Shown here in pieces: positions 6,925-55,917 of a DNA stretch of 64,000 nt (the first letter of the stretch is position 1; every line of letters starts with the position of its first letter). The notes beneath the pieces were generated by a model that saw only the letters and a program-made list of their open reading frames with translations, was not told the DNA's origin and searched no databases. This DNA comes from Shimia sagamensis (GTDB lineage Bacteria; Pseudomonadota; Alphaproteobacteria; Rhodobacterales; Rhodobacteraceae), in assembly GCF_900182745.1 (NCBI RefSeq), contig NZ_FXTY01000004.1:310001-374000 (forward strand). The letters run 5' to 3'. Made by a program: the position numbers and the translations under genes.

Positions 6925-6926
6925 CT

Positions 6927-36677: not shown

Positions 36678-37502
36678 CTAATCAAGCCCGACACACATGG
36701 TCCTGGCCGTTTCATGGCCAAGTGACGGCTGCATATTTGGCACCGGGCTCACCATTTTGCTGCCCGTTACGGGATCGGCGTAGACACGCGTGCGCAGACC
36801 ATACACCTGCTCGACAAGCTCTGGCGTCAGGATTTGGTTTGGGGTGCCCGTCGCGTACAGCCGCCCATCTTTCATCACCACAAGGTTGGTGGCAAACCGC
36901 GCGGCGTGACCGATGTCATGCAGAACCGCCACAATGGTTTTTCCAGCCGCGTGCAGGGTCTCGGTTAGCTCTAAGACTTCATATTGGTATTTGATGTCCA
37001 GAAAACTTGTGGGTTCATCCAGCAGCACATAAGGCGTGTCCTGTGCCACACACATGGCCAAAAACGCCCGCTGACGCTGCCCTCCTGAAAGCTCACTCAC
37101 CATGCGATCGCGCAAATCTGCAATCGCCACAGCTTCCAGCGCGGCTTCGATTTTTTCCTGATCAGTGCGGCTGCGTACACCAAACAGATTTTGATGTGGC
37201 GCACGGCCGTAACCAACCAATTGCCCGACGCTGATCCCGGGAGGCACCACAGGATGCTGAGGCAACACCGCAACCTGCCGCGCAATGGCTTTGGTGGGTT
37301 CACGTGCTGTATCTCGCCCCGAAATCCGCACTGTACCGGCACTCAATGGCAGTTGGCGCGCAATGGTTTTAAGCAAAGTGGATTTTCCGCAACCGTTTGG
37401 TCCAATCAGTGCGGTTAATTCACCGGCCTTGATGGTGGCGGTTACCTGATCCAGCATGAACCCGCCATATCCGGCACGAATATCAGTCAACTCAATGCTC
37501 AT
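36678..37502 (-). CDS. Iron-siderophore ABC transporter ATP-binding protein (FecE type)
   Basis: A 274-residue ATPase: Walker A GPNGCGKST, LPQHPVVPPGISVGQLVGYGRAPH (FecE-like), signature LSGGQRQRAFLA, Walker B VLLDEPTSFLD and switch LHDIGHA. The FepC/FecE-type Q-loop and C-terminus point to siderophore or haem uptake. ATG overlaps the stop of the upstream permease (ATGA); it is the last gene of the four-gene importer. Confidence 0.92.
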   Translation of the reverse strand: MSIELTDIRAGYGGFMLDQVTATIKAGELTALIGPNGCGKSTLLKTIARQLPLSAGTVRISGRDTAREPTKAIARQVAVLPQHPVVPPGISVGQLVGYGRAPHQNLFGVRSRTDQEKIEAALEAVAIADLRDRMVSELSGGQRQRAFLAMCVAQDTPYVLLDEPTSFLDIKYQYEVLELTETLHAAGKTIVAVLHDIGHAARFATNLVVMKDGRLYATGTPNQILTPELVEQVYGLRTRVYADPVTGSKMVSPVPNMQPSLGHETARTMCVGLD

Positions 37503-40830: not shown

Positions 40831-40859
40831 TTGACATAAATTTCCGTTATGTGAATTAT
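40831..40859 (+). promoter_or_regulatory. Sigma70-like promoter of the SorC-linked catabolic operon
   Basis: Consensus TTGACA (40831-40836), 17-bp spacer, AATTAT (40854-40859, four of six to consensus); TATATT at 40857-40862 is an alternative -10. The leader to the binding-protein ATG would be about 100 nt. A palindrome lies between and over these elements. Confidence 0.5.
40834..40852. promoter_or_regulatory. Candidate operator ACATAA-N7-TTATGT
   Basis: A perfect 6-bp inverted repeat (40834-40839 and 40847-40852) covers the spacer of the operon promoter, where a bound protein would block RNA polymerase. The SorC-family regulator encoded in the same operon is the natural candidate to bind here. 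Confidence 0.5.
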
Positions 40860-40963
40860 ATTTCATCGGTTGATATTTATTGCGGATTCGGGAGGGTGCG
40901 CGGGAAACCGGAAAAGTGAGGTGACTGTCATCTCTTTGATCCAATGCATGGGAGGAGTGTGTA

Positions 40964-41983
40964 ATGGGGATCTTTGGAAAGAAACTTATGGCGACCACGT
41001 TGATGGTGTCATCCTTGGCGATATCGGCAGGGTCGGCGCTTGCAGACGATGGTAAGCGTATCGCGTTCTTTGTTTCAGACTTGTCCAACGTGTTTCACCA
41101 GTCGCAAGCCGCGGCTGCTGAGAAATACGCGATGGAGGAGTATGGCGCGAAGGTTGTTGTGTTTGACGGTCAGGCCGACAGTGCGGTGATGACTCAAAAC
41201 GTTGATCAGGTTGTTGCTGGTGGCTTTGATGCAGCAACGTTGCACATTTGGGATGCTGAGGCGGCAACGCCTGGTGTGATGGACGCGCTGGACGAGGGCA
41301 TTGTCATGACCTCCTTCTTTAGCCCAATCACCGACACTGGCATTCCTACGGCCCGCAGCGATGAAGCATCGGTGTCGTTTGAAATGGGCGCCCAAATGGC
41401 GACCGCTTGGAAAGAGGCCCATCCAGACAAGCCAATTGTGATGGTGCAGCTTGGCTGGCCAAACCACACAGAGGTCAACTCTGGGCGTACAGCGCCGTTT
41501 GTTGAAGGTGTGTTGTCTGTGGATGCGTCGGCCGAAAACCTCGGCGCATTGGACTCCAGCAAAGGTCAGGAAGCGGCCAAGCAGATTATCGTGGACCTCT
41601 TGACCCAGCGTCCTGAAGTGAACCTGATCTACTCGGAAGCGTCAAACCTGACCGTTGGCACCATGGCGGGCCTGTCCCAGCTTGGGCGCGGCAAATTTGA
41701 AAACGGCAAGCCGTTGACAGAGATCGTGGCCAGCGTGGATTTTGACGCGGTTGAAGTTGACCACGTGTTTGATCCGAACTCGAGCCTGAAAGTGTCCATG
41801 GGTTTGCCACCGCTGGAAACAGCGATGGGCCGTATCGACCTGATTATGGACGTGCTTGAGGGTAAGGTTGCGCCGAAATCGGACACCGCTGAAGAGTTCT
41901 TCTACAAAGCGTATACCATTTCCAATTGGACAATGGACAAAGCTGATGCGGAGAAGTGGTTGGACAGCCAGTTCGGCGGATAA
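40964..41983 (+). CDS. Sugar-type ABC transporter substrate-binding protein
   Basis: A 339-residue periplasmic binding protein of the ribose/galactose (type I) class, with a signal peptide ending GSALA before DDGKRIAFFVSD. The fold shows two Rossmann lobes: VFHQSQAAAAEKYAMEEYGAKVVVFDGQADSAVMTQNVDQVVAGGFDAATLHIWD is the first lobe start. It is not evidently LsrB, whose ligand-binding residues differ. First gene of the operon, likely the most abundant product, and followed by a 152-bp gap with a hairpin. Confidence 0.88.
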   Translation: MGIFGKKLMATTLMVSSLAISAGSALADDGKRIAFFVSDLSNVFHQSQAAAAEKYAMEEYGAKVVVFDGQADSAVMTQNVDQVVAGGFDAATLHIWDAEAATPGVMDALDEGIVMTSFFSPITDTGIPTARSDEASVSFEMGAQMATAWKEAHPDKPIVMVQLGWPNHTEVNSGRTAPFVEGVLSVDASAENLGALDSSKGQEAAKQIIVDLLTQRPEVNLIYSEASNLTVGTMAGLSQLGRGKFENGKPLTEIVASVDFDAVEVDHVFDPNSSLKVSMGLPPLETAMGRIDLIMDVLEGKVAPKSDTAEEFFYKAYTISNWTMDKADAEKWLDSQFGG

Positions 41984-42065
41984 GTCCACACGAAGGCGGT
42001 TGGCGGTTCTGACGTGACCGGGGATGGGTCATAGGGATCGCCAGCTTGCCAGAACTATTTGAGCA

Positions 42066-42098
42066 TTGCGACAAACCCACAACGCTGAGGCGTCGCAA
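42066..42098 (+). repeat. Intercistronic hairpin after the binding-protein gene
   Basis: TTGCGAC (42066-42072) and GTCGCAA (42092-42098) form a 7-bp perfect stem with a 19-nt loop in the 152-bp gap between the binding-protein and ATPase genes. There is no T-run, so it may protect the upstream mRNA rather than terminate; this is the usual reason for high binding-protein yield. Confidence 0.4.
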
Positions 42099-42135
42099 GT
42101 CGAGATGAAGTGCTTCGAGCCAGGGGGAAGCAGGC

Positions 42136-43647
42136 ATGACCGAAGAGCAGAAAACATCGGTGCTCTCCGTTGATGGGCTGACAAAAGACTATCCGGGTGT
42201 CCGGGCTGTCGACAATGTCACATTTTCTATTCAAAACAGTGTGGTGCACTGTTTGGTTGGGGAGAACGGTGCGGGCAAATCAACGCTGGTTAAGATGCTG
42301 ACGGGCGCACTTGCGCCAACGGCCGGCGCGATGACGGTGAATGGTAAGGCTTACGTCCCCACCAGTCCGCAAGAGGCACGCGAGGGCGGGATAGCAACTT
42401 TGTTCCAAGAGCTGCACGTGGTTGACGAGCTGACAGTACTAGAGAACCTGACGTTGGGCATGGAGAAAAGTCGATTTGGGTTTTTTGTGAAGTCGGACCT
42501 TGAAGACCGAGTGACCCAGACTTTGGCCACGATTGAACCTGCCATTGATCCGGCTGCACGGGTGTCGACTTTGAGTGTCGCGCAAAAACAGATTGTTGAA
42601 ATTGCACGTGCGGCGTCATCCGGCGCAAACATTATCATTATGGATGAACCCACTGCGGCGCTATCAGAGCGCGAAGTGGAGCGTTTGTTCACGGTTATTC
42701 GGCGACTGCGCGAAAACAATGTCACTGTGATCTATATCTCTCACAAGCTGGACGAGATATTTGAGTTGGGTGACACGGTCACTGTCATGCGCGACGGCAA
42801 ACATATCACCACCTGCCCGCTGAGCGACGTGGACGGACGCGCGGAACTGATTGAAATGATGATCGGGCGGACGGTGTTTCAGAGCTATTCACCGCGCGGC
42901 AAGATCGGTGAAAAAGTGGTGCTCAAGGCCGAAGGTTTGAACACCAAACTTCTGAAAAATGTGTCCTTTGACATCAAAGAAGGTGAGATCATTGGGTTTT
43001 ATGGACTGGTTGGGGCCGGAAAAACCGAGGTGGCACGGGCGTTGTTTGGTGCGGACTCTTTTGATGGGAAAGTCACATTTCACGGCAAACCCGGCGGCAG
43101 GACACCTAAAGAAGCGATTGCCAAAGGCATCGCGCTGGTGCCGGAGGAACGCCGCACGCAGGGTCTGTTCACCAGTTTGACCATTCGTGAAAACGTGCCG
43201 GTGATGAACCTGCCAAGGGTGACGCAAAACGGTGTGTTCAAAGCTGAAGACGTGCGCACTGCGGCCCAGGAGTTTGTCACTCAGCTGGGCATCGCGACCA
43301 GCTCCATCGAGAAACACACGGAAAAGCTTTCTGGCGGAAATCAGCAAAAGGTTGTTCTGGCCAAGTGTCTGTTTTCGCAGGCAGACCTTCTGCTTCTGGA
43401 TGAGCCAACGCGCGGCGTGGATGTTGGTGCTAAGACTGAAATTTATGAAATCATCAAGGACCTGGCAAACGAAGGCAATGCGGTGGCGGTGTTTTCCTCG
43501 GAACTGGAAGAAGTTCTAGGCATTTGTGACCGTGTGTTCTTGATGTTTGACGGTTGTCTTCAAGAAGAAATCGAAAACGGCCCAAATGTGGATATCGCCC
43601 ATATTTTGAATGTGGTGACCGGTGGTCAAGACGAGGATGCACGATGA
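42136..43647 (+). CDS. Sugar ABC transporter ATP-binding protein (double ABC, RbsA/LsrA type)
   Basis: A 503-residue fused ATPase with two ABC domains. N-terminal: Walker A GENGAGKST, LSVAQKQIVEIARA signature, Walker B IIIMDEPTAALS. C-terminal: altered Walker A GLVGAGKTE, signature LSGGNQQKVVLAKC, Walker B LLLLDEPTRGVD. This is the CUT2 carbohydrate class. The stop overlaps the next permease start (ATGA). Confidence 0.94.
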   Translation: MTEEQKTSVLSVDGLTKDYPGVRAVDNVTFSIQNSVVHCLVGENGAGKSTLVKMLTGALAPTAGAMTVNGKAYVPTSPQEAREGGIATLFQELHVVDELTVLENLTLGMEKSRFGFFVKSDLEDRVTQTLATIEPAIDPAARVSTLSVAQKQIVEIARAASSGANIIIMDEPTAALSEREVERLFTVIRRLRENNVTVIYISHKLDEIFELGDTVTVMRDGKHITTCPLSDVDGRAELIEMMIGRTVFQSYSPRGKIGEKVVLKAEGLNTKLLKNVSFDIKEGEIIGFYGLVGAGKTEVARALFGADSFDGKVTFHGKPGGRTPKEAIAKGIALVPEERRTQGLFTSLTIRENVPVMNLPRVTQNGVFKAEDVRTAAQEFVTQLGIATSSIEKHTEKLSGGNQQKVVLAKCLFSQADLLLLDEPTRGVDVGAKTEIYEIIKDLANEGNAVAVFSSELEEVLGICDRVFLMFDGCLQEEIENGPNVDIAHILNVVTGGQDEDAR

Positions 43648-44669
43648 GCAGCGTGACAGACACTCTCCCTTCAGGGCCAACGCGGTCCAAAATGAGCGAC
43701 GAAGGGTTCATCTCGTCCCTTGTGGCGGCGGTTGCGATCAGTCTCTTTCTGATAGCCTCGCTGTTGGTTCCCAATTTTTTCCAGTGGCAGAATGTGGTCA
43801 ATTTGGTCACCAACAATTGGGCGGTGATTGCGCTTGGCGTAGGGGTGTCCTTCCTGTTGGTGTCTGGCAACTTTGACCTGTCGGTGGGAGGCATTGTGGC
43901 CTTGTCCGGTGTTTTGTCCGTCTGGTTTGCTCAAAGCACGGAGGGCGCAAATGCGCTGTCCACTGGGCTTGGGCTTCCTTATGGGCTTGCGATTGCATGT
44001 GCCCTACTTGGGTCTTTGGCAATTGGTGCTCTGAACGCGTTGTTTGTGGTGCGATTTGGCATCCCGTCGATCATTGTCACCTTGGGTACAATGATGGTGG
44101 CGCGTGGCATTGCGCAGGTCATCACCCATGGTTCACAGCGCAACACAAACTTGCCAGATGCCTTTGGCTATCTTGGAAATCTGAGTTTGTTTGGCACATC
44201 CATAAAATTTCCCGTGGTGCTTATGGGGCTGTTGTTGGTGGTTGCCATATTTGTGGAGCGGAAAATGGTGTTTGGCCGCATCACCTATTGGATTGGCGCC
44301 AACCCGGAGGCCGCAAGCCTGTCTGGCATCGATCGGGCGCGCCATATCACCAAGCTTTATCTGTTTAGTGCCGGTATTGCCGGGGTGGTGGGGATCCTTC
44401 TGGCGTCTGAGTACAAATCGGGGTTTTCCAATCGGGGACTGCTGATGGAGTTTGATGCCCTGGTCATTGCATTGCTTGGCGGTGTTGCCATTGCAGGTGG
44501 CTTTGGCTCCGTGATTGGCATGTTCTTTGGTGCCATCATTCTTGCGGTGGTCACCTCTGCGGCCACAGGATTGGTGCTTTCGCCGGATTGGCAGTTCATT
44601 CTCAAAGCGGTGGCCGTTTTCCTCGCGATTGTCACGCAAACCTGGGCGCTGGCCCGTCGGAATAAGTGA
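43644..44669 (+). CDS. Sugar ABC transporter permease 1 (RbsC/LsrC type)
   Basis: A 341-residue CUT2 permease with about eight to ten TM helices. LLVSGNFDLSVGGIVALSGVLSVWFA is the family signature, and IGALNALFVVRFGIPSIIVTLGTMMVARGIAQ follows. It differs from the second permease by a longer cytoplasmic N-terminus. Overlaps both neighbours by 4 bp, so a heterodimeric channel with the next gene is likely. Confidence 0.92.
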   Translation: MSSVTDTLPSGPTRSKMSDEGFISSLVAAVAISLFLIASLLVPNFFQWQNVVNLVTNNWAVIALGVGVSFLLVSGNFDLSVGGIVALSGVLSVWFAQSTEGANALSTGLGLPYGLAIACALLGSLAIGALNALFVVRFGIPSIIVTLGTMMVARGIAQVITHGSQRNTNLPDAFGYLGNLSLFGTSIKFPVVLMGLLLVVAIFVERKMVFGRITYWIGANPEAASLSGIDRARHITKLYLFSAGIAGVVGILLASEYKSGFSNRGLLMEFDALVIALLGGVAIAGGFGSVIGMFFGAIILAVVTSAATGLVLSPDWQFILKAVAVFLAIVTQTWALARRNK

Positions 44670-45709
44670 GTACGATGTCGATGTCATCTCAATCCAAAAC
44701 TGCGGAACAGAGTGTCGCGTCTGGTGCGGCCAACTTCCTGCGCAACTACTATATCTACTTTGTGCTTGTGGCCATCGTAGCGCTGCTTAGCCTGGCCAAT
44801 CTGGATCAATTTGCCTTGTTTGAGCGGGGAAACTTTCTCAACAAGCGCAACATCATCAATATCTTGCGTGTGTCTGCGCCCATTCTTGTTGTTGCTGGCG
44901 CGTTCACATTGCTGATGGTGTCAGGTTACATCGACTTGTCCATTGGCAGCACAATGGGGCTGACCGCGGTGATCTATGCGATGTTGGCGATCAATGGCAT
45001 GCCGTTTGTGCCCGCCTTTCTGCTGACAATGCTGGCTGGTGCCGTATTGGGAGCGATCAATGGGATCTTGGTTGTGCGCCTCAATATCACGCCTGTGATC
45101 GCAACACTGATCACGCTGAGTTTGTTCAAAGGCATTGCGCTGCTGTTGGTGCAGGACGGGGTTTCGGCGATCAAATCCGGTGGTGGATTGAAAATGCCGG
45201 CGTGGTTTAATGACTATGGACGGGACGGGGTGTTTCTCAAGTTGCCGGCTGCCTTCTGGGTCGCCGTGGCGGTGACGTTGGTGCTGATTGTTGTGCAAAA
45301 CCGCGGCAAGCTTGGCAAATACGCAGCCGCAACGGGCGGTAACCCAACTGCGGCCAAACTCTCTGGCATCAATACTGGGCGCACTGTTTTCCTGCTCTAT
45401 GTCATCGTTGGTGTCACCGCAGCCTTGGCCGGGATTGCCCGATCCAGCTTTATGTCTCTGGGGGATCCGCTGTCTGGCGACGGCATGGAGCTCACCGCGA
45501 TCCTGGTGGTCCTGCTTGGCGGGACGGCGTTCAGCGGTGGCGAGGGGCGGGTGTTGCGCTCTTTTGTCGGTGCGCTGATCATCATGGCGTTGACCGTCGG
45601 CATGTTGACGATTGTCCCTGCGTATTATCAAACACTTGTAATCGGCGCGGCGCTTTTGACAGCGGCGGCCACCAACCACCTTGTTAGTCAAAAGGGCAAA
45701 GTATCGTGA
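44666..45709 (+). CDS. Sugar ABC transporter permease 2 (RbsC/LsrD type)
   Basis: A 347-residue CUT2 permease with FTLLMVSGYIDLSIGSTMGLTAVIYAMLA and INGILVVRLNITPVIATLITLSLFKGIALLL. The GTG start at 44666 overlaps the previous stop (GTGA); ATGs at 44675 and 44681 are alternatives. GKYAAATGGNPTAAKLSGINTGRTVFLLYVI is the conserved cytoplasmic coupling loop. Confidence 0.92.
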   Translation: MSTMSMSSQSKTAEQSVASGAANFLRNYYIYFVLVAIVALLSLANLDQFALFERGNFLNKRNIINILRVSAPILVVAGAFTLLMVSGYIDLSIGSTMGLTAVIYAMLAINGMPFVPAFLLTMLAGAVLGAINGILVVRLNITPVIATLITLSLFKGIALLLVQDGVSAIKSGGGLKMPAWFNDYGRDGVFLKLPAAFWVAVAVTLVLIVVQNRGKLGKYAAATGGNPTAAKLSGINTGRTVFLLYVIVGVTAALAGIARSSFMSLGDPLSGDGMELTAILVVLLGGTAFSGGEGRVLRSFVGALIIMALTVGMLTIVPAYYQTLVIGAALLTAAATNHLVSQKGKVS

Positions 45710-46677
45710 GTTCCCTGACCCCAAATCCAGAACAAATGCGTCTCATCGTGCGTGTGTTGTCGATGCATTATGAAGATGAACGTGCGCAGTCTGACATTGC
45801 CAAAGCGCTGGAGCTTTCAACGGCCAAGGTGAACCGTCTGATCAAGCAGGGCCGGGAACTTGGCATGGTGCAGATCACGATCAAAAGCCCGTTGATGCGC
45901 TTTTTTGATCTCGAACGCGAAATCGCGGATCGCTGGTCTTTGAAACGGTGTTTGGTGGTGCCGTCTGTGACAGGCAGCGAGACATCGACTTTAACTGAAG
46001 TGGGCAAGGGCGCTGCGAACCTATTGCTGGATGCGATCCGGGATGGCGACAAGATTGCGGTTTCGGGCGGCAAAACTCTCAGCGTGATGATCGAGAACCT
46101 GTCTGTCAGCGCGCATTATGACGTTGAAGTGGTGCCAATGACCGGCGGCGTTCAAGGGCAGCATTACACCGACGTGAACCACATCACGACGCAGCTGGCT
46201 GACAAGTTGTCGGGCCGCGCGCGGCTTATTCATGCGCCGCTACACGCGGATTCCGAAGGCGAACGCGATCTGGTGATGTCGGTTAAGTCTGTGCGCGAGG
46301 TCATGAGTGAGGCCCGCAGCGCCAATGTGGCTGTGGTGGGCATCGGAGCCGTCGTTGGTGCGGACAGCACATACTACATGGCCCATCCAGTGTCAGAAGT
46401 GGAGCGTGCACGGCTGTATAAAACCGGGGTGCGCAGCGAATTTCTCGGCCACCTCATTCAGGAAGACGGCAGTGTTTCTGGCAACACCTACAACTCCCGT
46501 CTTGTGGCGCTGCTGCCGCAAGAATTGGCCCGCATTCCCGTCACCATTGCCATCGCGTCGGGGGCCGAAAAGGTCGAACCCATCGCCGCTGCGCTTAATG
46601 GTGGGTATTTCAACTCGCTTGTCACGGACGAGCACACCGCAACCGCCTTGCTGAAAGAGGAAGTGCTCAATGCTTGA
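45706..46677 (+). CDS. SorC-family transcriptional regulator
   Basis: A 323-residue regulator: N-terminal HTH RAQSDIAKALELSTAKVNRLIKQGRELGMVQITI (about 25-60), then a large sugar-phosphate-binding domain with DKIAVSGGKTLSVMIENL, GGVQGQHYTDVNHITTQLADKLSGRARLIHAPLHADSEGERD and VVGIGAVVGADSTYYMAHPVSEVER. SorC members include LsrR (binds phospho-AI-2) and EryD. Its place inside the operon suggests autoregulation with a phosphorylated pathway intermediate as inducer. GTG start overlaps the permease stop. Confidence 0.93.
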   Translation: MSSLTPNPEQMRLIVRVLSMHYEDERAQSDIAKALELSTAKVNRLIKQGRELGMVQITIKSPLMRFFDLEREIADRWSLKRCLVVPSVTGSETSTLTEVGKGAANLLLDAIRDGDKIAVSGGKTLSVMIENLSVSAHYDVEVVPMTGGVQGQHYTDVNHITTQLADKLSGRARLIHAPLHADSEGERDLVMSVKSVREVMSEARSANVAVVGIGAVVGADSTYYMAHPVSEVERARLYKTGVRSEFLGHLIQEDGSVSGNTYNSRLVALLPQELARIPVTIAIASGAEKVEPIAAALNGGYFNSLVTDEHTATALLKEEVLNA

Positions 46678-47677
46678 TCGACAGGAACACAACATGCTGA
46701 CGCGTGAAATTGGCCGCTCTGGTATCCAGGCCTCCGCCATTGGGCTAGGCACCTGGGCCATTGGCGGCTGGATGTGGGGGGGCACAGATGAGGCCAAATC
46801 CATCAAGGCCATTCAGGCCTCTATTGACGAAGGTATCAGCCTGATCGACACGGCGCCGGCCTACGGGCAAGGCGTGGCTGAGGAAATTGTCGGCAAGGCC
46901 CTTAAGGGACGCCGCGACAAGGTGGTTTTGGCCACCAAATGTGGCTTGGTCTGGCACACACAAAAGGGAAATCACTTTTTTGATTACGACAGCGGCCCAG
47001 TGCATCGGTATCTGGGGAAAGACGCGATCATCTATGAGGTGGAGCAAAGCCTGAAGCGCTTGGGCACAGATGTGATTGACCACTACATCACCCATTGGCA
47101 GGACCCAACAACGCCGGTTGAAGAGACCATGGAAGCTTTGGAACAGCTCAAAACCCAAGGCAAGATCCGTTCGATTGGCGCCAGCAATACCACACCAGAG
47201 GACGTGGCCGCTTATCTCGCCGCAGGTCAATTGGATGCGGTGCAGGAAGAGTACTCCATGATCAAGCGGGATCTGGACACCACAATGGCGCCTCTGTGTG
47301 TTGAAAAAGGTGTGTCGATCCTGAGTTATTCGTCGCTCGCGCTGGGTTTGTTAAGCGGCAAAATTGGCCCGGATCGCGTGTTTGAGGGGGATGACCAACG
47401 CAAGGACAACCCGCGTTTCTCGATGGCCAATCGCCAAAAAGTGGCGCAGCTCATGCAAGCCATTTCAGAGGTTGCGGAAACACATGGGGCCACGTGTGCC
47501 CAAACGGTCATCGCCTGGACCGTGCAACAACCGGGCATAACTTTTTCACTCTGTGGTGCGCGTGATGCTGGTCAAGCCGCGGAAAACGCCAAGGCTGGGC
47601 GTTTGCGATTGAGCAGCGACGATCTCGAAGTCATCAGTACTGCGGCTCAAAAGAACCTGACCGACCTCGACGGGTAA
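46670..47677 (+). CDS. Aldo/keto reductase
   Basis: A 335-residue TIM-barrel AKR with the catalytic tetrad Asp60, Tyr65 (DTAPAYG), Lys90 (ATKCGL) and His142 (YITHWQDP). The NADP-binding segment near the C-terminus (ISFSLCGARDAGQAAENAKAGRL-like) is present. The ATG at 46670 overlaps the regulator end by 8 bp; an ATG at 46694 gives the more usual family start. It probably reduces or oxidises a carbonyl/alcohol in the pathway. Confidence 0.9.
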   Translation: MLDRQEHNMLTREIGRSGIQASAIGLGTWAIGGWMWGGTDEAKSIKAIQASIDEGISLIDTAPAYGQGVAEEIVGKALKGRRDKVVLATKCGLVWHTQKGNHFFDYDSGPVHRYLGKDAIIYEVEQSLKRLGTDVIDHYITHWQDPTTPVEETMEALEQLKTQGKIRSIGASNTTPEDVAAYLAAGQLDAVQEEYSMIKRDLDTTMAPLCVEKGVSILSYSSLALGLLSGKIGPDRVFEGDDQRKDNPRFSMANRQKVAQLMQAISEVAETHGATCAQTVIAWTVQQPGITFSLCGARDAGQAAENAKAGRLRLSSDDLEVISTAAQKNLTDLDG

Positions 47678-47734
47678 CTCTCGTCACAATGAAACCTTTG
47701 CAACATCGCATGTGCTGCGGTGAACGGGAAAGCT

Positions 47735-49459
47735 ATGTCTGACGCACGCCAAAATAATCTGGCTTTGATCAAGGATAACAATGCCTTTGACGTTGTTGTC
47801 GTCGGCGGCGGGGTGAATGGGATCGGTGTCTATAGGGATCTGTCCCTGCAAGGATTGCGGGTCCTGTTGGTGGAGAAAAACGATTTTGCGTCGGGATGTT
47901 CTGCGGCACCATCGCGTATGATCCACGGTGGTTTGCGCTATCTGGAAAACGGTGAATTTGATCTGGTGCGAGAGTCGTTGCTGGAGCGTGATGCCTTGTT
48001 GCGCAACGCCCCACATATGGTGAAGCCGTTGCCAACCGTGATCCCAATAACCTCTTTGTTTTCTGGCATGTTGAATTCTGCCGCGAGTTTTTTAGGGCGG
48101 CAGGGCAAGCCGTCGAGCCGCGGTGCGCTGCCAATCAAATTGGGGCTGGGGCTGTATGACTGGGTGACCCGGAAAAGTCGCGCGGTGCCGAGACATGCCT
48201 TTTTTGGCGGGGCGGAAACCCGCAGGCGCTGGCCTGACATCACCGCACAGGCCAAGTGTTCGGCGGTTTACTACGATGCATGGATTTCGCATCCGGAACG
48301 GCTGTGTCTGGAAATGATCTCTGATGTGGGTGAAGCCGCGCCGCACTGCGTCGCCCTAAACTATGCCGAGCTGCAAAAATCTGGAGACACTTATACACTG
48401 ACCTGTCAGCGCTCCGGCAAAAGCTTGGACATTAAGCCCCGCACAATTGTGCATGCAACGGGCGCTTGGTTGGATAAATCGGTGTCAAACTTGGCGGGTG
48501 CACCTGAGAAAAAGATGGTGGCCGGCACCAAAGGCTCCCATCTGATCATCGACAACCCTGCGTTGGAAAAGGCGCTCGGTGGCCATATGGCCTATTTTGA
48601 GAACGCCGATGGGCGGGTGTGCATTGTGTTCCCGTATCAGGGCAAAGTTCTGGCGGGCTCTACCGATATCCGGGTCGAAGAAGCTGCCCGCGTGCGGTGC
48701 GAAGCGGATGAGCTCAACTACATCTTGGATTCGTTGAGGTTGGTGTTTCCCAACATCGAGATGTCCGCAACCGACGTCGTGTTTAGCTACTCGGGCATTC
48801 GGCCGTTGCCGCAGAGCACGCAGGAGTTCACTGGGCGTATTTCCCGTGGCCATGATGTCAAAGTGTTGCCCGGAGATGTGCCGCAATTTTGCATGGTTGG
48901 CGGTAAGTGGACAACCTTTCGCGCCTTTGCGGAACAAACCGCCGATATGGTTTTGCAAGAGCTGGGCAAGCCCCGGCGCCGCGATACGCGTAATTTGGCA
49001 ATTGGCGGCGGCAAAGGCTATTCTGAGCAATCCGAGGTGCTTACCCAAGCCTTGCAGCATCGTTTTGCCATCAGCTCGGATCGAGCGCGGCATTTGATGT
49101 CGCACTACGGCAGTGCTGCAGCGTCTGTTCAGGCGTTTTGCACATCTTTGGGAGGGGATGTCTCCCTTGGCGAAGGTGTCCAGTATTCGAAAGCCGAGAT
49201 ACGCCGCCTCATCACCGATGAACACGTTCAAACGCTCGCTGACATTGCTTTGCGACGCACCTCTTTGGCGATCACCGGGCAGATATCCTTAGGGCTTATC
49301 GGGGGACTGGCGCAGGTGTTGTCAGAGGAGCTGTCCCTGTCAGCTGCGGAAACCACAGCACAGAAAAATCAATTGATCGAAGAATTGTCGGACTTCTACG
49401 GGGTGACCCCGCAGATGCTGGCCGAACGCACAAAACAATGGAGTATGAAATGCGCGTAA
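47735..49459 (+). CDS. FAD-dependent glycerol-3-phosphate dehydrogenase family protein (GlpD/EryB type)
   Basis: A 574-residue flavoprotein. The FAD Rossmann motif VVVVGGGVNGIGVYRDLSLQGLRVLLVEK is at about 20-48, followed by DFASGCSAAPSRMIHGGLRYLE, both GlpD hallmarks. A DAO-type core and a C-terminal domain (about 395-530) complete it. Members oxidise polyol phosphates and pass electrons to quinone: GlpD acts on glycerol-3-P and EryB on erythritol-4-P. Beside an FGGY kinase and an aldolase, a role in polyol-phosphate oxidation is likely. No glpF/glpK is adjacent, so plain glycerol use is less likely. Confidence 0.88.
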   Translation: MSDARQNNLALIKDNNAFDVVVVGGGVNGIGVYRDLSLQGLRVLLVEKNDFASGCSAAPSRMIHGGLRYLENGEFDLVRESLLERDALLRNAPHMVKPLPTVIPITSLFSGMLNSAASFLGRQGKPSSRGALPIKLGLGLYDWVTRKSRAVPRHAFFGGAETRRRWPDITAQAKCSAVYYDAWISHPERLCLEMISDVGEAAPHCVALNYAELQKSGDTYTLTCQRSGKSLDIKPRTIVHATGAWLDKSVSNLAGAPEKKMVAGTKGSHLIIDNPALEKALGGHMAYFENADGRVCIVFPYQGKVLAGSTDIRVEEAARVRCEADELNYILDSLRLVFPNIEMSATDVVFSYSGIRPLPQSTQEFTGRISRGHDVKVLPGDVPQFCMVGGKWTTFRAFAEQTADMVLQELGKPRRRDTRNLAIGGGKGYSEQSEVLTQALQHRFAISSDRARHLMSHYGSAAASVQAFCTSLGGDVSLGEGVQYSKAEIRRLITDEHVQTLADIALRRTSLAITGQISLGLIGGLAQVLSEELSLSAAETTAQKNQLIEELSDFYGVTPQMLAERTKQWSMKCA

Positions 49460-50292
49460 GCACTAAAGCGCGGATGAACCGCATGTTCACAAATGGCGGG
49501 TGTCTGGATGTGGCAATTGACCATGGCGTCTGTAATGAGCCCAGCTTCATGGTGGGTCTGGAAGACATGCCAAGTGTGATGGACACGCTGATCAAGGCCA
49601 AGCCGGACGCAATCCAATGTGCTTATGGTCAGGCTGACCTGCTGCAAAACCGCCCTGAAAAGGACAAGCCGGCGTTGGTGATGCGCATCGACATGGGCAA
49701 CCCCTACAACGACCAGCGCCATCGGGTGATGTGGTCGATGCTACAAAACGCTGATGAACCGATTATTGGCGCGTTGGAAATGGATGCGGCGGCAGTGGTG
49801 GTCAATCTGTTCATGTTGCCCGACGAGCCGGAGCTGTTCCGTCAGTGTGTGGAAAACATCAGCCGTGTGCGGGCGTCATGTGACAAATACGGCATGCCTT
49901 TGATGATCGAGCCGCTTGTGATGCTGCCCAACGATGTGCGCGGTGGCTATCAAGTTGATGGCGCCGCTGAGAAAATTGTGACCCTCGTGCGCTTGGCCTC
50001 AGAAATGGGCGCTGACATTATCAAAGCGGATCCCACTGAAAACGCTGAGGATTTTCACCGCGTGATTGAGGCGGCTCGGGTGCCGGTGCTGGTGCGTGGC
50101 GGCGGCAAAGATGATCTTCAATCTGTGCTGAACAAATCCGCTGCTCTTATGGCGCAAGGCGCGCAGGGGATGGTCTACGGGCGCAATATCTATCAGCATG
50201 ACAATCCGAAGGCTGTGGTCGCTGCGCTGATGGCGCTGATCCACTCCGGCGCTTCGGGTGACGAAGCTTGGGATATATACAACCGTGGTTAA
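49450..50292 (+). CDS. Class I aldolase of the DhnA/LsrF family
   Basis: A 280-residue TIM-barrel aldolase. CLDVAIDHGVCNEP matches the AFDHG motif of LsrF and FbaB, the Schiff-base lysine is Lys192 in GADIIKADPT, and the C-terminal phosphate-binding loop is GAQGMVYGRNIYQHDNP. The family includes fructose-1,6-bisphosphate aldolase (FbaB), LsrF and related enzymes. The ATG at 49450 with upstream GGAG is used; it overlaps the previous stop by 10 bp. Confidence 0.9.
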   Translation: MRVSTKARMNRMFTNGGCLDVAIDHGVCNEPSFMVGLEDMPSVMDTLIKAKPDAIQCAYGQADLLQNRPEKDKPALVMRIDMGNPYNDQRHRVMWSMLQNADEPIIGALEMDAAAVVVNLFMLPDEPELFRQCVENISRVRASCDKYGMPLMIEPLVMLPNDVRGGYQVDGAAEKIVTLVRLASEMGADIIKADPTENAEDFHRVIEAARVPVLVRGGGKDDLQSVLNKSAALMAQGAQGMVYGRNIYQHDNPKAVVAALMALIHSGASGDEAWDIYNRG

Positions 50293-51805
50293 ATCAGCGC
50301 AAAAATACCTCCTAGGGCTGGATGCAGGCAACACCGTGATCAAGGCGGTGCTGTTTGATCTAGAGGGCCAACAGGTTGCGATGCAGGTATTGGATGGCCA
50401 GACCAGCACGCCGCAGCCAGGCTACGTTGAACGTGATTTAGGCGAGCTTTGGGCCAATGCTGGCACTGTGATCGCTGCCTGTATCGCGGAGGCCGAAATT
50501 GCCGCGGAACAGATCGCGGCGGTTGGTTGTGCGGGACATGGCAACGGGCTTTATCTGTTGGATAAGTCCGGGGCGCCGCTGCTTGGCATTCAATCTCTGG
50601 ACACGCGGGCCGCCTCTGTGGCTGAGGAGTTGTCGCTTGCCCATGGTGATCGACTGCATGAGCTCTGCTTGCAAAAACCATGGCCGTCGCAAACACCTGC
50701 GCTGTTGGCATGGGTGAAGCGGCATAAGCCGGACCTTTATGCCGCCACCGGTACGGTGCTGTTGTGCAAAGATTTTATCACCAACCGGCTGACTGGCGCG
50801 CGGGTCAGTGACATCTCCGACATGTCCGGCTGTGGCCTTACCCGGATGCCTCAGGCCACTTATGACGCAGAGCTTTTGGCGCTGTATGGCTTGGCCGACG
50901 CAGAAGAGATGTTGCCGCGCCTGATCGATCCCGCCGATATTGCGGGCCATGTCACGGCTGAGGCGGCAAAAATCACAGGTCTGGCGGAAGGCACGCCAGT
51001 GATCGGGGGCTATTTCGATGTGGTCTCCAGTGCCTTGGGCTCTGGGGCGGGCTGTGCGGGGGACGCTTCAATTATTGCGGGCACCTGGAGTATCAATCAG
51101 GTGTTCTCTGACGCGCCTGTGGTTGATCCCAACGTCTTTATGGTCAGCGCGTTTGGCGCCGGCCAGTTTGTCAATATCGAGGCCAGCGCCACCTCTGCGG
51201 TGAATTTGGAGTGGTACGTCCGTGAATTTGTGGAGCGAGGGGGGCATCACGACGACCCCTTTGGGTACTGCAATCAACGTGTCGGAGAGATTGCGCCGCG
51301 ACTGGATGATCCATTTTTTCACCCGTTTCTTTACGGCTCGGGGCAAGGCGCAGAGTTTCGCGCTGGGTTTTATGGTGTGGCTGGCTGGCATACTGAAGGC
51401 CATATGCTGCGCGCGTTATTTGAAGGGGTGATGTTTGAACACCGTCGTCATATTGCGGTTTTGCAAGATGCCGGGGTGAACATTGACCGCGCTATTTTGT
51501 CAGGCGGCGGCGCTCGAAGCCCACATTGGCCGCAAATGTTTGCCGATTGTTTGGGCGTGCCAATTGTGGTGGCCGAGGCGCAGGAAACCGGCGCGCTGGG
51601 TGCCGCAATTGGTGCTGCGGTGGCCGTGGAGCTGGTGGCGGATTATGCGGAGGGCATCGCCAAAATGACGCGCCCACGCCAGACCTTTGCGCCCAATCCG
51701 GCGATGCGCGCGCATTACCAAAAACGCGCCGAAATTTTTGCGACCCTGTCAGACGCAATGCAACCTATCTGGGCGCAGATGCGCTCTCTGGAGGACAACT
51801 CATGA
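50285..51805 (+). CDS. FGGY-family carbohydrate kinase
   Basis: A 506-residue FGGY kinase. N-terminal ATP fold: LLGLDAGNTVIKAVLFDLEGQQVAM; substrate-domain signature DKSGAPLLGIQSLDTRA-like; C-terminal FGGY part: DRAILSGGGARSPHWPQMFADCLGVPIVVAEAQETGALGAAIGA. Members phosphorylate glycerol, xylulose, erythritol (EryA) or AI-2 (LsrK). The substrate cannot be told. The GTG start overlaps the aldolase stop. Confidence 0.9.
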   Translation: MVKSAQKYLLGLDAGNTVIKAVLFDLEGQQVAMQVLDGQTSTPQPGYVERDLGELWANAGTVIAACIAEAEIAAEQIAAVGCAGHGNGLYLLDKSGAPLLGIQSLDTRAASVAEELSLAHGDRLHELCLQKPWPSQTPALLAWVKRHKPDLYAATGTVLLCKDFITNRLTGARVSDISDMSGCGLTRMPQATYDAELLALYGLADAEEMLPRLIDPADIAGHVTAEAAKITGLAEGTPVIGGYFDVVSSALGSGAGCAGDASIIAGTWSINQVFSDAPVVDPNVFMVSAFGAGQFVNIEASATSAVNLEWYVREFVERGGHHDDPFGYCNQRVGEIAPRLDDPFFHPFLYGSGQGAEFRAGFYGVAGWHTEGHMLRALFEGVMFEHRRHIAVLQDAGVNIDRAILSGGGARSPHWPQMFADCLGVPIVVAEAQETGALGAAIGAAVAVELVADYAEGIAKMTRPRQTFAPNPAMRAHYQKRAEIFATLSDAMQPIWAQMRSLEDNS

Positions 51806-52812
51806 AAGCCATTGGTTTTGTAAACTCTCTGCCCATCGAACACGCGGACAGCCTGTTTGAAGTTGATATGCCCACGCCTGAAATTGGCGCCATGGACCTG
51901 TTGGTTGCGGTTGAAGCCATTTCAGTCAATCCAGCAGACGCCAAACGGCGCATTCGCACTGCCGTGGACGCGCCACATGAAGCTCCGATGATTTTGGGCT
52001 ATGACGCTGTTGGCCGCATTGAGGCCATCGGGGCAGATGTATCCGGTTTCGAGGTGGGAGATCGTGTTTGGTATGCGGGGGATGCAAACCGCCCCGGGTC
52101 TTATGCGGAACTACAGGCCGTGGATCACAGGATAGTGTCCCACGCGCCTGGCAATGTGGTGCCGGAGGCGGCTGCGGCCCTGCCCTTGGTGTCGCTCACA
52201 AGCTGGGAAATGTTGTTTGACCGATTGCAGGTGGCCTCTGGGCCGTCCCGCAAATCGTTGCTGGTGATTGGTGGCGCCGGAGGGGTCGGGTCCATCACAC
52301 AACAGTTGGCACGCAAGCTCACGGGCTTGGAAGTCATTGCCACCGCGTCGCGCAAAGAAAGTGCACAGTGGTGTCGAAAAATGGGGGCACATGAGGTTGT
52401 GAACCACCGCGATCTGATTGCGGACACACGGGCCAGCGGCCGGGAGTTTGTAGACTTCATCGCGCAATATGCCGACACAGCCCAGCACTGGGATGCCATG
52501 TGTGACTTGATCGCTCCTCAGGGTCGGATCGGCACCATTGTGGAAACGGATGAAAAGCTTGATATCTCGGCGCTACAAGGCAAGTCAGCGGCTTTGATGT
52601 GGGAGCTTATGTTCACGCGCTCCCTGTTTGGGACGCCGGATATGGCACGTCAGGGGCAGATACTGGCCCGCATGGCGCGCTTGGTGGATGATGGCATCGT
52701 CAGCACAACGGAAACCACCACGCTACGTGGTTTAAGCGCTGACACCTTGAAAGAGGCGCATGCGTTGATTGAGCGCGGCACTATGATTGGCAAGCTTGTG
52801 GTTGCCTTCTGA
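51802..52812 (+). CDS. Zinc-type alcohol dehydrogenase family protein (MDR superfamily)
   Basis: A 336-residue medium-chain dehydrogenase/reductase. N-terminal GroES-like part with PADAKRRIRTAV and GYDAVGRIEAIGADVSGFEVGDRVWYAGD; NADP-binding motif LLVIGGAGGVGSITQQLARKL (about 150-170). The zinc ligands of classical alcohol dehydrogenases are not evident, so it is closer to the quinone-oxidoreductase-like branch. GGAGGACAACTC precedes the ATG, which overlaps the kinase stop. Confidence 0.88.
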   Translation: MKAIGFVNSLPIEHADSLFEVDMPTPEIGAMDLLVAVEAISVNPADAKRRIRTAVDAPHEAPMILGYDAVGRIEAIGADVSGFEVGDRVWYAGDANRPGSYAELQAVDHRIVSHAPGNVVPEAAAALPLVSLTSWEMLFDRLQVASGPSRKSLLVIGGAGGVGSITQQLARKLTGLEVIATASRKESAQWCRKMGAHEVVNHRDLIADTRASGREFVDFIAQYADTAQHWDAMCDLIAPQGRIGTIVETDEKLDISALQGKSAALMWELMFTRSLFGTPDMARQGQILARMARLVDDGIVSTTETTTLRGLSADTLKEAHALIERGTMIGKLVVAF

Positions 52813-52835
52813 TCCAAACAGCCGAGACTAAGAAT

Positions 52836-54449
52836 ATGACAATTCCAACCCCTTTAGAGGGTGACTACGACTACATCATAGTTGGGGCGGGGACCGCTGG
52901 ATGTGTGCTGGCAAACCGCTTGACAGAAGATCCCAAAACCCGGGTTCTTTTGTTGGAGGCAGGCAAGTCGGACAATTACCATTGGGTGCACATCCCGGTT
53001 GGCTATTTGTATTGCATCGGCAACCCGCGCACCGACTGGATGATGAAAACCGCCAATGAGTCTGGCTTGAATGGGCGGGCGCTGGTCTATCCACGTGGCA
53101 AGGTGTTGGGCGGCTGTTCCTCAGTGAACGGCATGATTTACATGCGCGGGCAGGCTGCGGATTATGACCACTGGCGGCAATTGGGAAATGCCGGTTGGTC
53201 GTGGGATGACGTCTTGCCGTATTTTCGAAAATCGGAAGATCACCATGCCGGTGAGAACGCGTTGCATGGGGCGGGCGGCGAATGGAAAGTGTCCAAACAA
53301 CGCTTGGGCTGGGAGATCCTTGAGGCGGTTCAGGAGGGCGCGCGCGAATTTGGCATCGCGCCACGCGCTGACTTCAACGATGGGAACAACGAGGGCAGCG
53401 GCCTGTTTGAAGTGAACCAGAAAGGCGGGGTCCGCTGGAACACGTCCAAAGCGTTTTTGCGTCCGGCCATGAAGCGGCCCAATCTGCGTGTGATTACTGA
53501 AGCACATACCGATCATGTGGTGCTTGAGGGCACGCGGGTCACGGGCGTGCATTTCACCCACAGGGGGCAGAAAACATTGGCCAAAGCCAGTGCGGAAGTT
53601 TTGCTTGCCGCAGGGGCGATCAACTCTCCCAAAATTCTGGAACTGTCGGGTATTGGGCGCGTGGACGTGCTGAAAGAACACGGCATTGATGTACAACACA
53701 TGAGTGCGGGTGTTGGCGAAAACCTGCAGGATCACTTGCAAATTCGCACTGTGTTTAAGGTCAAAAACGCCAAAACGCTGAACACCATGGCAAATTCAAT
53801 CATAGGCAAAGCGCGGATCGGGTTGCAGTATATGTTCACCCAGTCGGGGCCGATGTCGATGGCTCCCAGTCAATTTGGCATGTTCACCAAGTCAGATCCT
53901 GCGATGGCGACGCCTGATCTGGAGTACCATGTGCAACCCTTGTCCACCGACAAATTGGGAGACCCATTGCATCCCTATCCGGCCATCACTGTGTCTGTCT
54001 GTAACTTGCGGCCAGAGAGTGTTGGCAGTTGCCATATCTCGACTTCGGACCGGCAGGTTCAACCAGACATTCAGTTGAATTACTTGTCTGCTGCCAAAGA
54101 CCGGCAAGTGGCCCTGACGTCTGTGAAGCAGGTGCGCGAGATTATGACGGCCACCGCCCTTGCACCTCACGCGCCTGAAGAGATGCTCCCGGGAGCTGAG
54201 GTGGAAAGTGATGACGCGCTACTTTCTGCCATTGGCGATATTGCCACCACAATTTTTCACCCGGTTGGAACCTGCAAAATGGGCACGGACGATGCCGCTG
54301 TAGTGGGGCCGGACTTGCGGGTGAGAGGGCTTGAAGGTCTGCGCGTGGTCGATGCCTCTATCATGCCGAAAATTGTGTCCGGCAACACGGCCTCACCTGT
54401 GATCATGATCGCAGAAAAGGCCGCCGACCTTATCCGGGAGGCCCATTAG
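52836..54449 (+). CDS. GMC-family FAD oxidoreductase
   Basis: A 537-residue glucose-methanol-choline oxidoreductase. FAD motif IIVGAGTAGCVLANRL (about 15-30), LVYPRGKVLGGCSSVNGMIYMRGQ (GMC signature 1), LLAAGAINSPKILELSGIG (signature 2), and the C-terminal FHPVGTCKMG with the catalytic His and GNTASPVIMIAEKAADLI. No signal peptide is seen, so it is probably cytosolic or membrane-associated. It would oxidise an alcohol group of the pathway compound or a side product. Confidence 0.92.
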   Translation: MTIPTPLEGDYDYIIVGAGTAGCVLANRLTEDPKTRVLLLEAGKSDNYHWVHIPVGYLYCIGNPRTDWMMKTANESGLNGRALVYPRGKVLGGCSSVNGMIYMRGQAADYDHWRQLGNAGWSWDDVLPYFRKSEDHHAGENALHGAGGEWKVSKQRLGWEILEAVQEGAREFGIAPRADFNDGNNEGSGLFEVNQKGGVRWNTSKAFLRPAMKRPNLRVITEAHTDHVVLEGTRVTGVHFTHRGQKTLAKASAEVLLAAGAINSPKILELSGIGRVDVLKEHGIDVQHMSAGVGENLQDHLQIRTVFKVKNAKTLNTMANSIIGKARIGLQYMFTQSGPMSMAPSQFGMFTKSDPAMATPDLEYHVQPLSTDKLGDPLHPYPAITVSVCNLRPESVGSCHISTSDRQVQPDIQLNYLSAAKDRQVALTSVKQVREIMTATALAPHAPEEMLPGAEVESDDALLSAIGDIATTIFHPVGTCKMGTDDAAVVGPDLRVRGLEGLRVVDASIMPKIVSGNTASPVIMIAEKAADLIREAH

Positions 54450-54740
54450 ATGACTGTATTTGTCGTTGTTGCCGAAGTGGAGGCTGGTGATGGTCATGAG
54501 GAGGCCATGGCGGCTGAGCTTAAGCTGTTGACCGCGGCGTCACGCGCAGAGGCTGGATGTGTGCAATACAGTCTTTGCGAAGAAGAGGGCGCAACTGGAC
54601 AGTGGTTGATCTACGAGGTGTGGCAGTCAGAAATGCATTGGCGGCAGCACTTAGAGACTGATGCGTTTCGGGCATTTAAGTTTGATGTTGTGCCCAGCAT
54701 TGGGCGCTTGTCTGCTCGAAAGTTTCGGCCTGTTCGTTAG
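54450..54740 (+). CDS. Antibiotic-biosynthesis-monooxygenase domain protein (LsrG/YgiN-like)
   Basis: A 96-residue ABM-fold protein: VFVVVAEVEAGDGHEEAMAAELKLLTAASRAEAGCVQYSLCEE followed by WLIYEVWQSEMHWRQHLET. Its start follows the GMC stop directly. ABM proteins are cofactor-free monooxygenases or isomerases; LsrG isomerises phospho-AI-2. It closes the operon. A terminator for the convergent prs gene follows at about 100 bp. Confidence 0.85.
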   Translation: MTVFVVVAEVEAGDGHEEAMAAELKLLTAASRAEAGCVQYSLCEEEGATGQWLIYEVWQSEMHWRQHLETDAFRAFKFDVVPSIGRLSARKFRPVR

Positions 54741-54840: not shown

Positions 54841-54870
54841 AAAAAGCCCCGACGTTTTCGCCGGGGCTTT
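54841..54870 (-). terminator. Bidirectional terminator between the operon and prs
   Basis: AGCCCCG (54845-54851) pairs with its inverted copy CGGGGCT (54862-54868). On the minus strand the stem is followed by TTTTT, after prs. On the plus strand only a weak TTTCT follows, so it may also end the catabolic operon. Confidence 0.82.
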
Positions 54871-54900: not shown

Positions 54901-55917
54901 TCAGGTCTTGAACAGACCTTCGTAAGCTGGCTCCAGCGTCTCGGTTTCAAACAGCGAGCTCACGGACGTGCCGTTGGCGGTGTTCAGGATCGCCTGAGCA
55001 AACATCGGGGCGGTGGGCACGATGCGGATGTTGCTGGCGCCCTTTACGGCCTCGGTGGGCTCGATGCTGTCGGTGATCACCAGCGACTTCATCACCGAGT
55101 TGGTGATGCGCTCAATCGCCGGGCCGGACAACACACCGTGGGAGATATAGCTGTGCACCTCGGTGGCGCCATGCTCGATCAGCACTTCGGCGGCTTTACA
55201 CAGCGTGCCGGCAGTGTCGCAGATGTCGTCCACGATGATACATTTTTTGCCTGCGACGTTGCCGATCACGGTCATCTCGGCAATTTCGCCCGGTTTCTCG
55301 CGCCGTTTGTCGACGATGGCCAGGGGGGCGTTGATACGTTTCGCCAATTCGCGTGCGCGGGCCACACCACCCACATCCGGGGAGATGATCATCACGTCGT
55401 CCAGCTGATCTTTGAACTGCGCTTTGATGTCGAGCGCAAACACCGGGGAGGCGTAAAGGTTGTCGACCGGGATGTCGAAGAAGCCTTGGATTTGGGCAGC
55501 GTGCAGATCCATGGTCAGGATGCGCTCGATGCCAGCCTCAACCATCATGTTGGCGACCAGCTTGGCGGTGATGGGTGTGCGGGCCTTGGTGCGACGATCC
55601 TGACGGGCGTAGCCGAAGTAGGGGATCACGGCGGTGATGCGGCTGGCCGAGGAGCGGCGCAGGGCGTCGGACATGATCAGCAGTTCCATCAGGTTGTCGT
55701 TTGCCGGATTGGAGGTCGACTGGATGATGAACATGTCTTCGCCGCGCACGTTGTCGTAGACTTCGACAAAGATTTCGGCGTCGTTGAAACGCTCGACACG
55801 GGCGTCGATCAGGTTGACGTTGCTGCCCCGGTGCATCGACATGCGCCGCGCGATGGCGCTGGCAAGCGGTTTGTTGGCATTGCCAGTGATCAGTTTTGGT
55901 TCAAGAATGGTGGCCAT
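54901..55917 (-). CDS. prs: Ribose-phosphate pyrophosphokinase
   Basis: A 338-residue PRPP synthetase. ATP/ribose motifs: [19 protein letters not shown], the catalytic [11 protein letters not shown] (Lys/His region) and the PRPP loop [14 protein letters not shown]. It makes PRPP from ribose-5-phosphate and ATP. Convergent with the catabolic operon; divergent from the isomerase gene at 56025. Confidence 0.96.

Follow-up and report, generated by a model that had tools for sequence, protein, structure and literature searches.

A conserved operon with a kinase, a presumed polyol-phosphate dehydrogenase and an aldolase in Shimia sagamensis, and its relation to the lsr and ery loci

Which compound is taken up and degraded by an operon that combines gene families known from the autoinducer-2 (AI-2) lsr operon of Escherichia coli and from the erythritol (ery) loci of rhizobia, and is such a combination a real unit? 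This question is raised by twelve genes at positions 40964-54740 of a 64,000-nucleotide stretch of Shimia sagamensis DNA (contig NZ_FXTY01000004.1, positions 310,001 to 374,000; hereafter the window, with positions counted from its first nucleotide). A previous reading made from the letters alone (the sequence-only reading) had described them as a SorC-linked operon for CUT2 import and catabolism, with lsr-like and ery-like parts. We found that the operon is real and conserved, and that it is of the kinase - polyol-phosphate dehydrogenase - dihydroxyacetone phosphate (DHAP) aldolase kind. With moderate confidence, we propose that it serves to take up a small polyhydroxylated compound, probably a rare polyol or ketose of five to six carbons, and to break it down by way of phosphorylation.

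Gene content and conservation of the operon

The ORF (open reading frame) listing gave twelve intact, co-directional ORFs, all on the + strand:

40964-41983, +, CUT2 substrate-binding protein (SBP) of type B (defined below), 339 aa (PF13407)
42136-43647, +, CUT2 two-domain ATPase, 503 aa (NCBIfam)
43644-44669, +, CUT2 permease A, 341 aa (PF02653)
44666-45709, +, CUT2 permease B, 347 aa (NCBIfam)
45706-46677, +, SorC-family regulator, 323 aa (PF04198)
46670-47677, +, aldo/keto reductase (AKR), 335 aa (PF00248)
47720-49459, +, GlpD-like FAD protein, long form, 579 aa, presumed polyol-phosphate dehydrogenase (PF01266 and PF16901)
49438-50292, +, class I DeoC/LacD (DhnA-type) aldolase, 284 aa, Schiff-base Lys196 (PF01791)
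50258-51805, +, FGGY carbohydrate kinase, 515 aa (PF00370 and PF02782)
51802-52812, +, MDR-family alcohol dehydrogenase-like protein (TIGR02817, 388 bits for a cut-off of 284)
52836-54449, +, GMC flavoprotein, choline-dehydrogenase-like (PF00732 and PF05199)
54450-54740, +, ABM-domain protein (PF03992)

At nine of the eleven junctions, the genes overlap or are separated by no more than 23 nt; the other two gaps measure 42 and 152 nt. In gene order, the junctions are +152 nt between the SBP and the ATPase, -4 nt at each of the three following junctions up to SorC, -8 nt (SorC-AKR), +42 nt (AKR-GlpD), -22 nt (GlpD-aldolase), -35 nt (aldolase-kinase), -4 nt (kinase-MDR, ATGA), +23 nt (MDR-GMC) and 0 nt (GMC-ABM). 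Family scans, with NCBIfam on all twelve products and Pfam on ten (the ATPase and permease B excluded), confirmed the class of each gene, in agreement with the earlier family assignments; together with the intact ORFs and the tight junctions, they bear out the SorC-linked import and catabolic operon that had been proposed.

The importer consists of a Peripla_BP_4 SBP, a two-domain ATPase and BPD_transp_2-type permeases, the components of a CUT2 system. The AKR is a relative of B. subtilis GS69 and matched PDB entry 1pz1 (E 8e-74), and the GlpD-like protein has the DAO and DAO_C architecture of its type. The aldolase scored 187.5 bits against PF01791 (cut-off 23.8), and its Lys196, which aligns to Lys203 of LsrF, is a Lys in all 89 rows of the family and in 7/7 LsrF rows, so that it belongs to the class I DeoC/LacD enzymes. 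The kinase carries both FGGY_N and FGGY_C, and the Asp of its GGYFDVV motif, aligned by eye to the GGGDNAA motif of XylB, is presumably the catalytic residue. An alignment of the kinase to PDB entries revealed no interpretable specificity residue.

To evaluate conservation, genome contigs were scanned with the aldolase. This gave 185 confirmed loci, and the counts below refer to the best 80 (the other 105 were left out), where some genes are missing due to contig ends or broken ORFs. By ORF clustering, we observed the aldolase in 80 loci, GlpD and AKR in 78 each, SorC in 77 and the kinase in 74. The remaining genes were found less often (GMC in 67, MDR in 21 and ABM in 10), and the detected genes stood in a single order on one strand in 80/80 loci. 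The operon is therefore more than a chance assembly: SorC, AKR, GlpD, aldolase and kinase form its core, and MDR and ABM are accessory. Given its presence in so few loci, ABM was rejected as a core gene. In the reduced loci L133 and L134, the transporter is accompanied by SorC, GlpD, the aldolase and the kinase; neither an AKR nor a GMC match was obtained within the 20 kb read.

The nearest named loci by aldolase identity were those of 'Rhodobacteraceae bacterium Alg238-R152' (99%) and an uncultured Shimia (98%). A search of plasmids retrieved 193 records at E <= 1e-40, including 86 from Rhizobium and 74 from Sinorhizobium; R. leguminosarum (R. johnstonii) pRL12, R. etli p42b and S. meliloti 2011 pSymB are among the relatives, as is a Photobacterium plasmid that carries the operon with another transporter (type A, see below) and no GMC match. 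Thirteen of these records were below 60% identity, and both of those whose neighborhood was read carry a sister operon. In whole-genome samples, each count including the window genome, the aldolase was matched in 15 of the 292 genomes sampled from the order (five at only 52-55%, corresponding to the sister operon), in 9 of 385 from the class and in 10 of 398 from the phylum, one of the last belonging to the sister group (G806).

The sister operon (L107, positions 1801-9188; also L108, L110-L114 and L139) combines a sister aldolase, 51% identical to that of the window in L107, with a Gfo/Idh/MocA oxidoreductase, a D-lyxose/mannose-type isomerase and a PfkB kinase. A similar CUT2 transporter was also present in L107, L114 and L139, and L113 had no isomerase match.

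Relation to lsr and ery and natural exchanges within the operon

With the E. coli lsr operon, the Shimia operon shares a CUT2 importer, a SorC regulator, an FGGY kinase and a class I lyase of the DeoC/LacD fold, and some relatives even hold a true LsrF. It differs by the addition of a GlpD-like flavoprotein, an AKR and a GMC protein, and none of the tests applied identified its proteins as LsrB, LsrK, LsrF or LsrG. With the rhizobial ery loci (eryABCD, eryEFG), it shares the FGGY kinase, the GlpD-like dehydrogenase and the SorC-family regulator, but its kinase and flavoprotein fall in other clades and an aldolase replaces EryC/TpiB/RpiB. The terms lsr-like and ery-like, if meant as kinship, thus hold at the superfamily level only.

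The regulator shows 30% identity to LsrR and 29% to EryD. The kinase is 26.6% identical to LsrK, 28.5% to EryA and 26.3% to XylB; the closest named kinase compared was an L-xylulose-kinase-like (LyxK-like) protein of Pantoea (35.6%), whose role was deduced from its operon. In two trees, the window kinase fell among kinases from other operons of this type and apart from EryA, LsrK and XylB. This group comprised ten rows including Sagittula in the first tree (support 97/95), and eight rows without Sagittula and Photobacterium in the second (85/92), where the Photobacterium kinase paired with the LyxK-like row (81/88) on long branches. Identities and trees both lead us to reject the window kinase as LsrK or EryA. 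The sequence-only reading had named a kinase lying inside either clade as evidence against its view, and no such placement was observed.

The flavoprotein is not EryB: it is 30.3% identical to it, and EryB groups with E. coli GlpD (100/100), with the window protein in another clade. Nor is the aldolase LsrF (26% identity; 100 bits against NF006081 for a cut-off of 297). A YihT-type sulfosugar aldolase was also left aside since YihT was absent from the BLAST matches of the window aldolase at 1e-3; both proteins carry an (I)IEP motif. The last product had been called an LsrG-like monooxygenase, and it does contain PF03992, but no BLAST match to LsrG was obtained at 1e-3 and this label was dropped.

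The view that the binding protein does not resemble LsrB was supported by the BLAST comparison and by a profile probability of 8.4. For the AI-2 contacts of LsrB, which we take to be K35, D116, D166, Q167, P220 and A222, K35 falls on Ser38 and D116 on Phe119 of the window SBP, by eye and only roughly at this probability. In the type A SBP (probability 95.6, also by eye), P220 and A222 are kept, D116 is replaced by Ala and D166-Q167 by Asn-His, and K35 lies outside the alignment. A structure model of the type A SBP (pLDDT 81) matched many sugar-binding proteins, including those for arabinose, ribose and allose and LsrB, so that no single ligand is implied. As the sequence-only reading had noted, no EryC-type isomerase family (EryC, TpiB/RpiB) was among the family-scan matches of the twelve products. 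Elsewhere in the host genome, no LsrF was found at E <= 1e-70, and the best EryB match lies on another contig (C7).

R. leguminosarum pRL12 holds a kinase/GlpD pair, RL_RS33910 and RL_RS33905, that is closer than EryA and EryB to the window proteins (37% identity for the kinase and 42% for GlpD) and adjoins an eryEFG-like transporter. Its locus differs by having DeoR as regulator and, nearby, a fructose-bisphosphate aldolase of class II, where the operon of the window has SorC and a class I aldolase. In this pRL12 region (L143, 3837-12514), the pair and DeoR lie downstream of the transporter, and Paracoccus and R. tumorigenes also have such pairs behind the transporter. On Agrobacterium fabrum plasmid pAtN33_94 (L148, 7287-14626), a diverged kinase/GlpD pair is accompanied by a transporter of the CUT1 type. 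The E. coli ydj cluster likewise combines an AKR, a kinase, a dehydrogenase and an aldolase acting on an uncommon sugar; it differs by its PfkB kinase, zinc dehydrogenase, class II aldolase and order of steps.

Two transporters were observed with the same enzyme set. Type A, whose SBP occurs in 63 of the 80 loci, consists of an SBP, an ATPase and one permease. Type B, the kind found in the window, has two permeases, and its SBP occurs in 18 of the 80 (upstream of the enzymes in 14); the window SBP shares 79-99% identity with the other 18 members of type B. The type could not be assigned in L078, L083 and L092. On a tree of four enzymes (72 typed loci), we counted four changes of transporter type, compared to a mean of 11.3 and a minimum of 8 in 500 shuffles, and on the SorC tree (71 loci) a single change. 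Transporter and SorC therefore tend to move as a pair, with the enzyme set unchanged. Four loci (L025, L027, L028 and L035) carry a type A operon with a type B transporter and a SorC gene downstream of it; another SorC lies within the type A part of the first three, and L035 has the downstream SorC only. In L035 (Shimia abyssi, matched by genome G256), the type B part stops after SorC, so that both transporters flank a single enzyme set, and G256 contains a single aldolase match. Both importers of L035 therefore most likely feed one pathway. No significant profile relation between the type A and type B SBPs was detected (probability 5.9), and from the shared enzymes we infer that they may bind the same compound.

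The aldolase itself is also exchanged. In Sagittula sp. MA-2 and G246, a type A transporter, SorC, GlpD and kinase are followed by LsrF, and Sagittula P11 has the same genes from SorC to LsrF in a record that begins just before SorC. The MA-2 protein is 72% identical to E. coli LsrF and scored 499 bits for the cut-off of 297, and the MA-2 GlpD and kinase are 44% and 45% identical to those of the window. The MA-2 SBP shares 68-78% identity with six SBPs that are linked to the aldolase (S. meliloti, R. leguminosarum, Photobacterium and three further genomes), and the MA-2 and G246 SBPs grouped with these six with 100/100 support. This tree was rebuilt without EryG, LsrB, the window SBP and the Shinella SBP, the version with distant outgroups being unusable (branch lengths of 10). 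The exchange represents a real tie to lsr chemistry, as a true LsrF can, judging by these neighborhoods, occupy the aldolase slot; and because LsrF naturally occurs there, the chemistry is directly testable.

Four LsrF loci were found among the 292 genomes of the order: G246 with its adjacent GlpD, a regular lsr operon with LsrK, LsrR, LsrACDB, LsrF and LsrG (L160, genome G290), and two with neither arrangement (L158, L159). In L158 (genome G011, around 4765-10871), an LsrF 70% identical to that of E. coli is preceded by a CUT2-like transporter and by a pair of small ORFs which, by eye, resemble an RbsD/FucU protein and an epimerase, and no LsrK match was found there. On two Shinella plasmids (L161, 10001-19939, and L162), LsrF lies outside any lsr operon, with an aldolase/SDR (short-chain dehydrogenase/reductase)-like protein, a CUT2 transporter, an FGGY kinase, a GlpD-like protein and a divergent DeoR.

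Candidate pathway and substrate

The reactions, the inducer and the substrate class proposed here are deduced from the gene families. The CUT2 importer would bring the substrate in, and the FGGY kinase would phosphorylate a terminal CH2OH. GlpD enzymes oxidize the hydroxyl next to a phosphate. The flavoprotein of the operon would thus oxidize the carbon adjoining the phosphate to yield a 1-phospho-2-ketone, its electrons passing to the respiratory chain. The class I aldolase would then form a Schiff base via Lys196 and cleave between C3 and C4, releasing DHAP and a small carbonyl fragment. The 1-phospho-2-ketone made by a kinase and a GlpD-type enzyme acting in turn is the half that class I aldolases and LsrF alike turn into DHAP. 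The AKR, GMC and MDR proteins would be helpers that oxidize or reduce either the free substrate or the released fragment, and the SorC regulator would control the operon, probably by sensing a phosphorylated intermediate. The order of import, phosphorylation, flavin oxidation and aldol cleavage, suggested earlier, is upheld as plausible.

Some observations weigh against this scheme. The roles of the AKR and the GMC protein are not explained by it. In the second kinase tree, the Sagittula pair lies outside the window-type group and the backbone is unresolved, and the backbone of the GlpD tree is open as well. The structure model of the window SBP was unusable (mean pLDDT 39.9), and L138 shows another arrangement, with a kinase match of only 30% and no SorC match. 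As for the exchange, the window aldolase carries MIEPLVM where LsrF has AVTGV, and the two reactions may differ; LsrF in this slot could point to a 1,3-diketone intermediate instead of a ketol. In addition, a RhaD-like class II aldolase follows LsrF in MA-2 and P11 and could be the cleaving enzyme there; in G246, no class II aldolase was found within the stretch read.

Four more specific readings were weighed, two of them being special cases of the general scheme. A divergent AI-2 uptake operon is very unlikely: the CUT2, SorC, FGGY, DhnA and ABM superfamilies are common to both, but the proteins fail as LsrK, LsrF and LsrG, the SBP does not resemble LsrB, and a regular lsr operon exists in the same family (L160). 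We consider an erythritol operon to be even more improbable in spite of its SorC, FGGY and GlpD-like set, as the kinase lies outside EryA, the flavoprotein is apart from EryB, no EryC-type family was matched and the best EryB match of the host is on contig C7; moreover, a four-carbon ketose 1-phosphate would yield formaldehyde. A rare pentitol or hexitol, split into DHAP and glycolaldehyde or glyceraldehyde before AKR reduction or GMC oxidation, is a tentative possibility that we keep in view. The sister kinase/GlpD pairs adjoin an erythritol-type transporter in R. leguminosarum and Paracoccus, and the sister aldolase (51%) in its isomerase-PfkB-Gfo/Idh operon is consistent with ketose 1-phosphate chemistry. 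However, this would leave the ability of a true LsrF to fill the slot unexplained. The transporter gene pRL120200 is named EryG in a passage of PMC5758756 and, from its position, would correspond to RL_RS33920.

The occurrence of LsrF in place of the aldolase is what a 1-deoxypentulose substrate, such as 1-deoxy-xylulose or a reduced AI-2 precursor, would account for, although we regard this reading as rather doubtful. The kinase would give the 5-phosphate and GlpD would oxidize C4 to 3-hydroxy-5-phosphooxypentane-2,4-dione, the known substrate of LsrF, without LsrK or LsrG; the presence of LsrF would be directly explained, since C4 oxidation of the 5-phosphate gives its substrate. LsrF would then cleave the dione to DHAP and acetyl-CoA, and in the window-type operons the AKR would reduce the methyl ketone first, so that the aldolase releases acetaldehyde. 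In favor of this, a true LsrF stands in the slot alongside the same SBP family, the AKR is present in 78/80 aldolase-type loci and in none of the five LsrF-type loci (MA-2, P11, G246 and the two Shinella plasmids), and the L-xylulose-kinase-like protein of Pantoea is closer to the window kinase than EryA, LsrK and XylB. By contrast, L133 and L134 have the aldolase without an AKR, which speaks against a strict equivalence of AKR plus aldolase to LsrF; LsrF has one known substrate; and a class II aldolase domain is additionally present in MA-2, P11 and Shinella. A broader version, which seems unlikely to us, would make the operon a second, quorum-signal-independent entry to the last step of AI-2 breakdown. 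Imported 1-deoxypentuloses would be converted by the kinase and GlpD-family oxidation to the LsrF substrate and split by LsrF, or by the DhnA-type aldolase after an AKR reduction, yielding DHAP and a C2 unit. In that case, LsrF would serve catabolism in general, with lsr as one of its users, and the S. meliloti and roseobacter operons would be a sink for deoxysugars of the methylerythritol phosphate (MEP) pathway.

Published context, transcription signals and flanking genes

In the open-access literature (supplements and subscription papers being outside the search), we found no description or assigned function of the operon, in line with the earlier suggestion that the combination may be undescribed. 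By ORF counting between published tags, we infer that the S. meliloti copy extends from SMb20496 (GMC) to SMb20504 (SBP); the same count would place the kinase at SMb20497, the aldolase at SMb20498 and GlpD at SMb20499. Passages of the sources give SMb20495 as a Clr target (PMC5498481), SMb20504 as a periplasmic sugar-binding protein (PMC12542648) and SMb20505 as a published tag, which was used for the counting (PMC4053727). Psicose is predicted, in a passage of PMC4961836, for the nearby SupABCD (SMb20484-20487), a separate system. The pathway sits in well-studied models (S. meliloti pSymB, R. leguminosarum pRL12 and R. etli p42b) and in many marine Rhodobacteraceae. Naming its substrate would identify a carbon source for plant-associated and marine bacteria, and would give a function to one clade of kinases, one clade of GlpD proteins and one family of class I aldolases, all of which now have generic annotations only.

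Two candidate transcription signals border the operon:

40831-40859, +, sigma-70-like promoter-like sequence TTGACA-17-AATTAT (motif scan and upstream alignment)
54843-54870, no strand assigned, GC-rich hairpin between ABM and the convergent gene 54901-55917 (by eye; absent from the motif scan list)

Position 40831, where the sequence-only reading had placed the start of the locus, is the -35 box of the promoter-like sequence. The scan of the sequence gave 8 such sites for 7.1 expected, so a single match is weak by itself; the -35 TTGACA was aligned in all 10 upstream regions compared, which came from the window and from 9 of the 18 type B loci. A TGAA..TTCA inverted repeat overlapping the -10 box, read by eye, is a possible SorC operator. 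The hairpin is likely a terminator shared by ABM and the convergent gene.

Two annotations were adjusted. The MDR gene starts at the ATG at 51802 instead of the long ORF upstream. Of the former GMC oxidase label, the GMC family stands (PF00732, PF05199) and the oxidase part does not: the protein resembles choline dehydrogenase and could act as a dehydrogenase. In Alloyangia pacifica (L109, 16787-17859), the annotation splits the GMC gene in two, which points to decay of an optional gene in this copy of the operon. Upstream of the operon and divergent from it (37499-40418, - strand), the translations read by eye correspond to FecCD-like permeases and an iron-siderophore-type binding protein.

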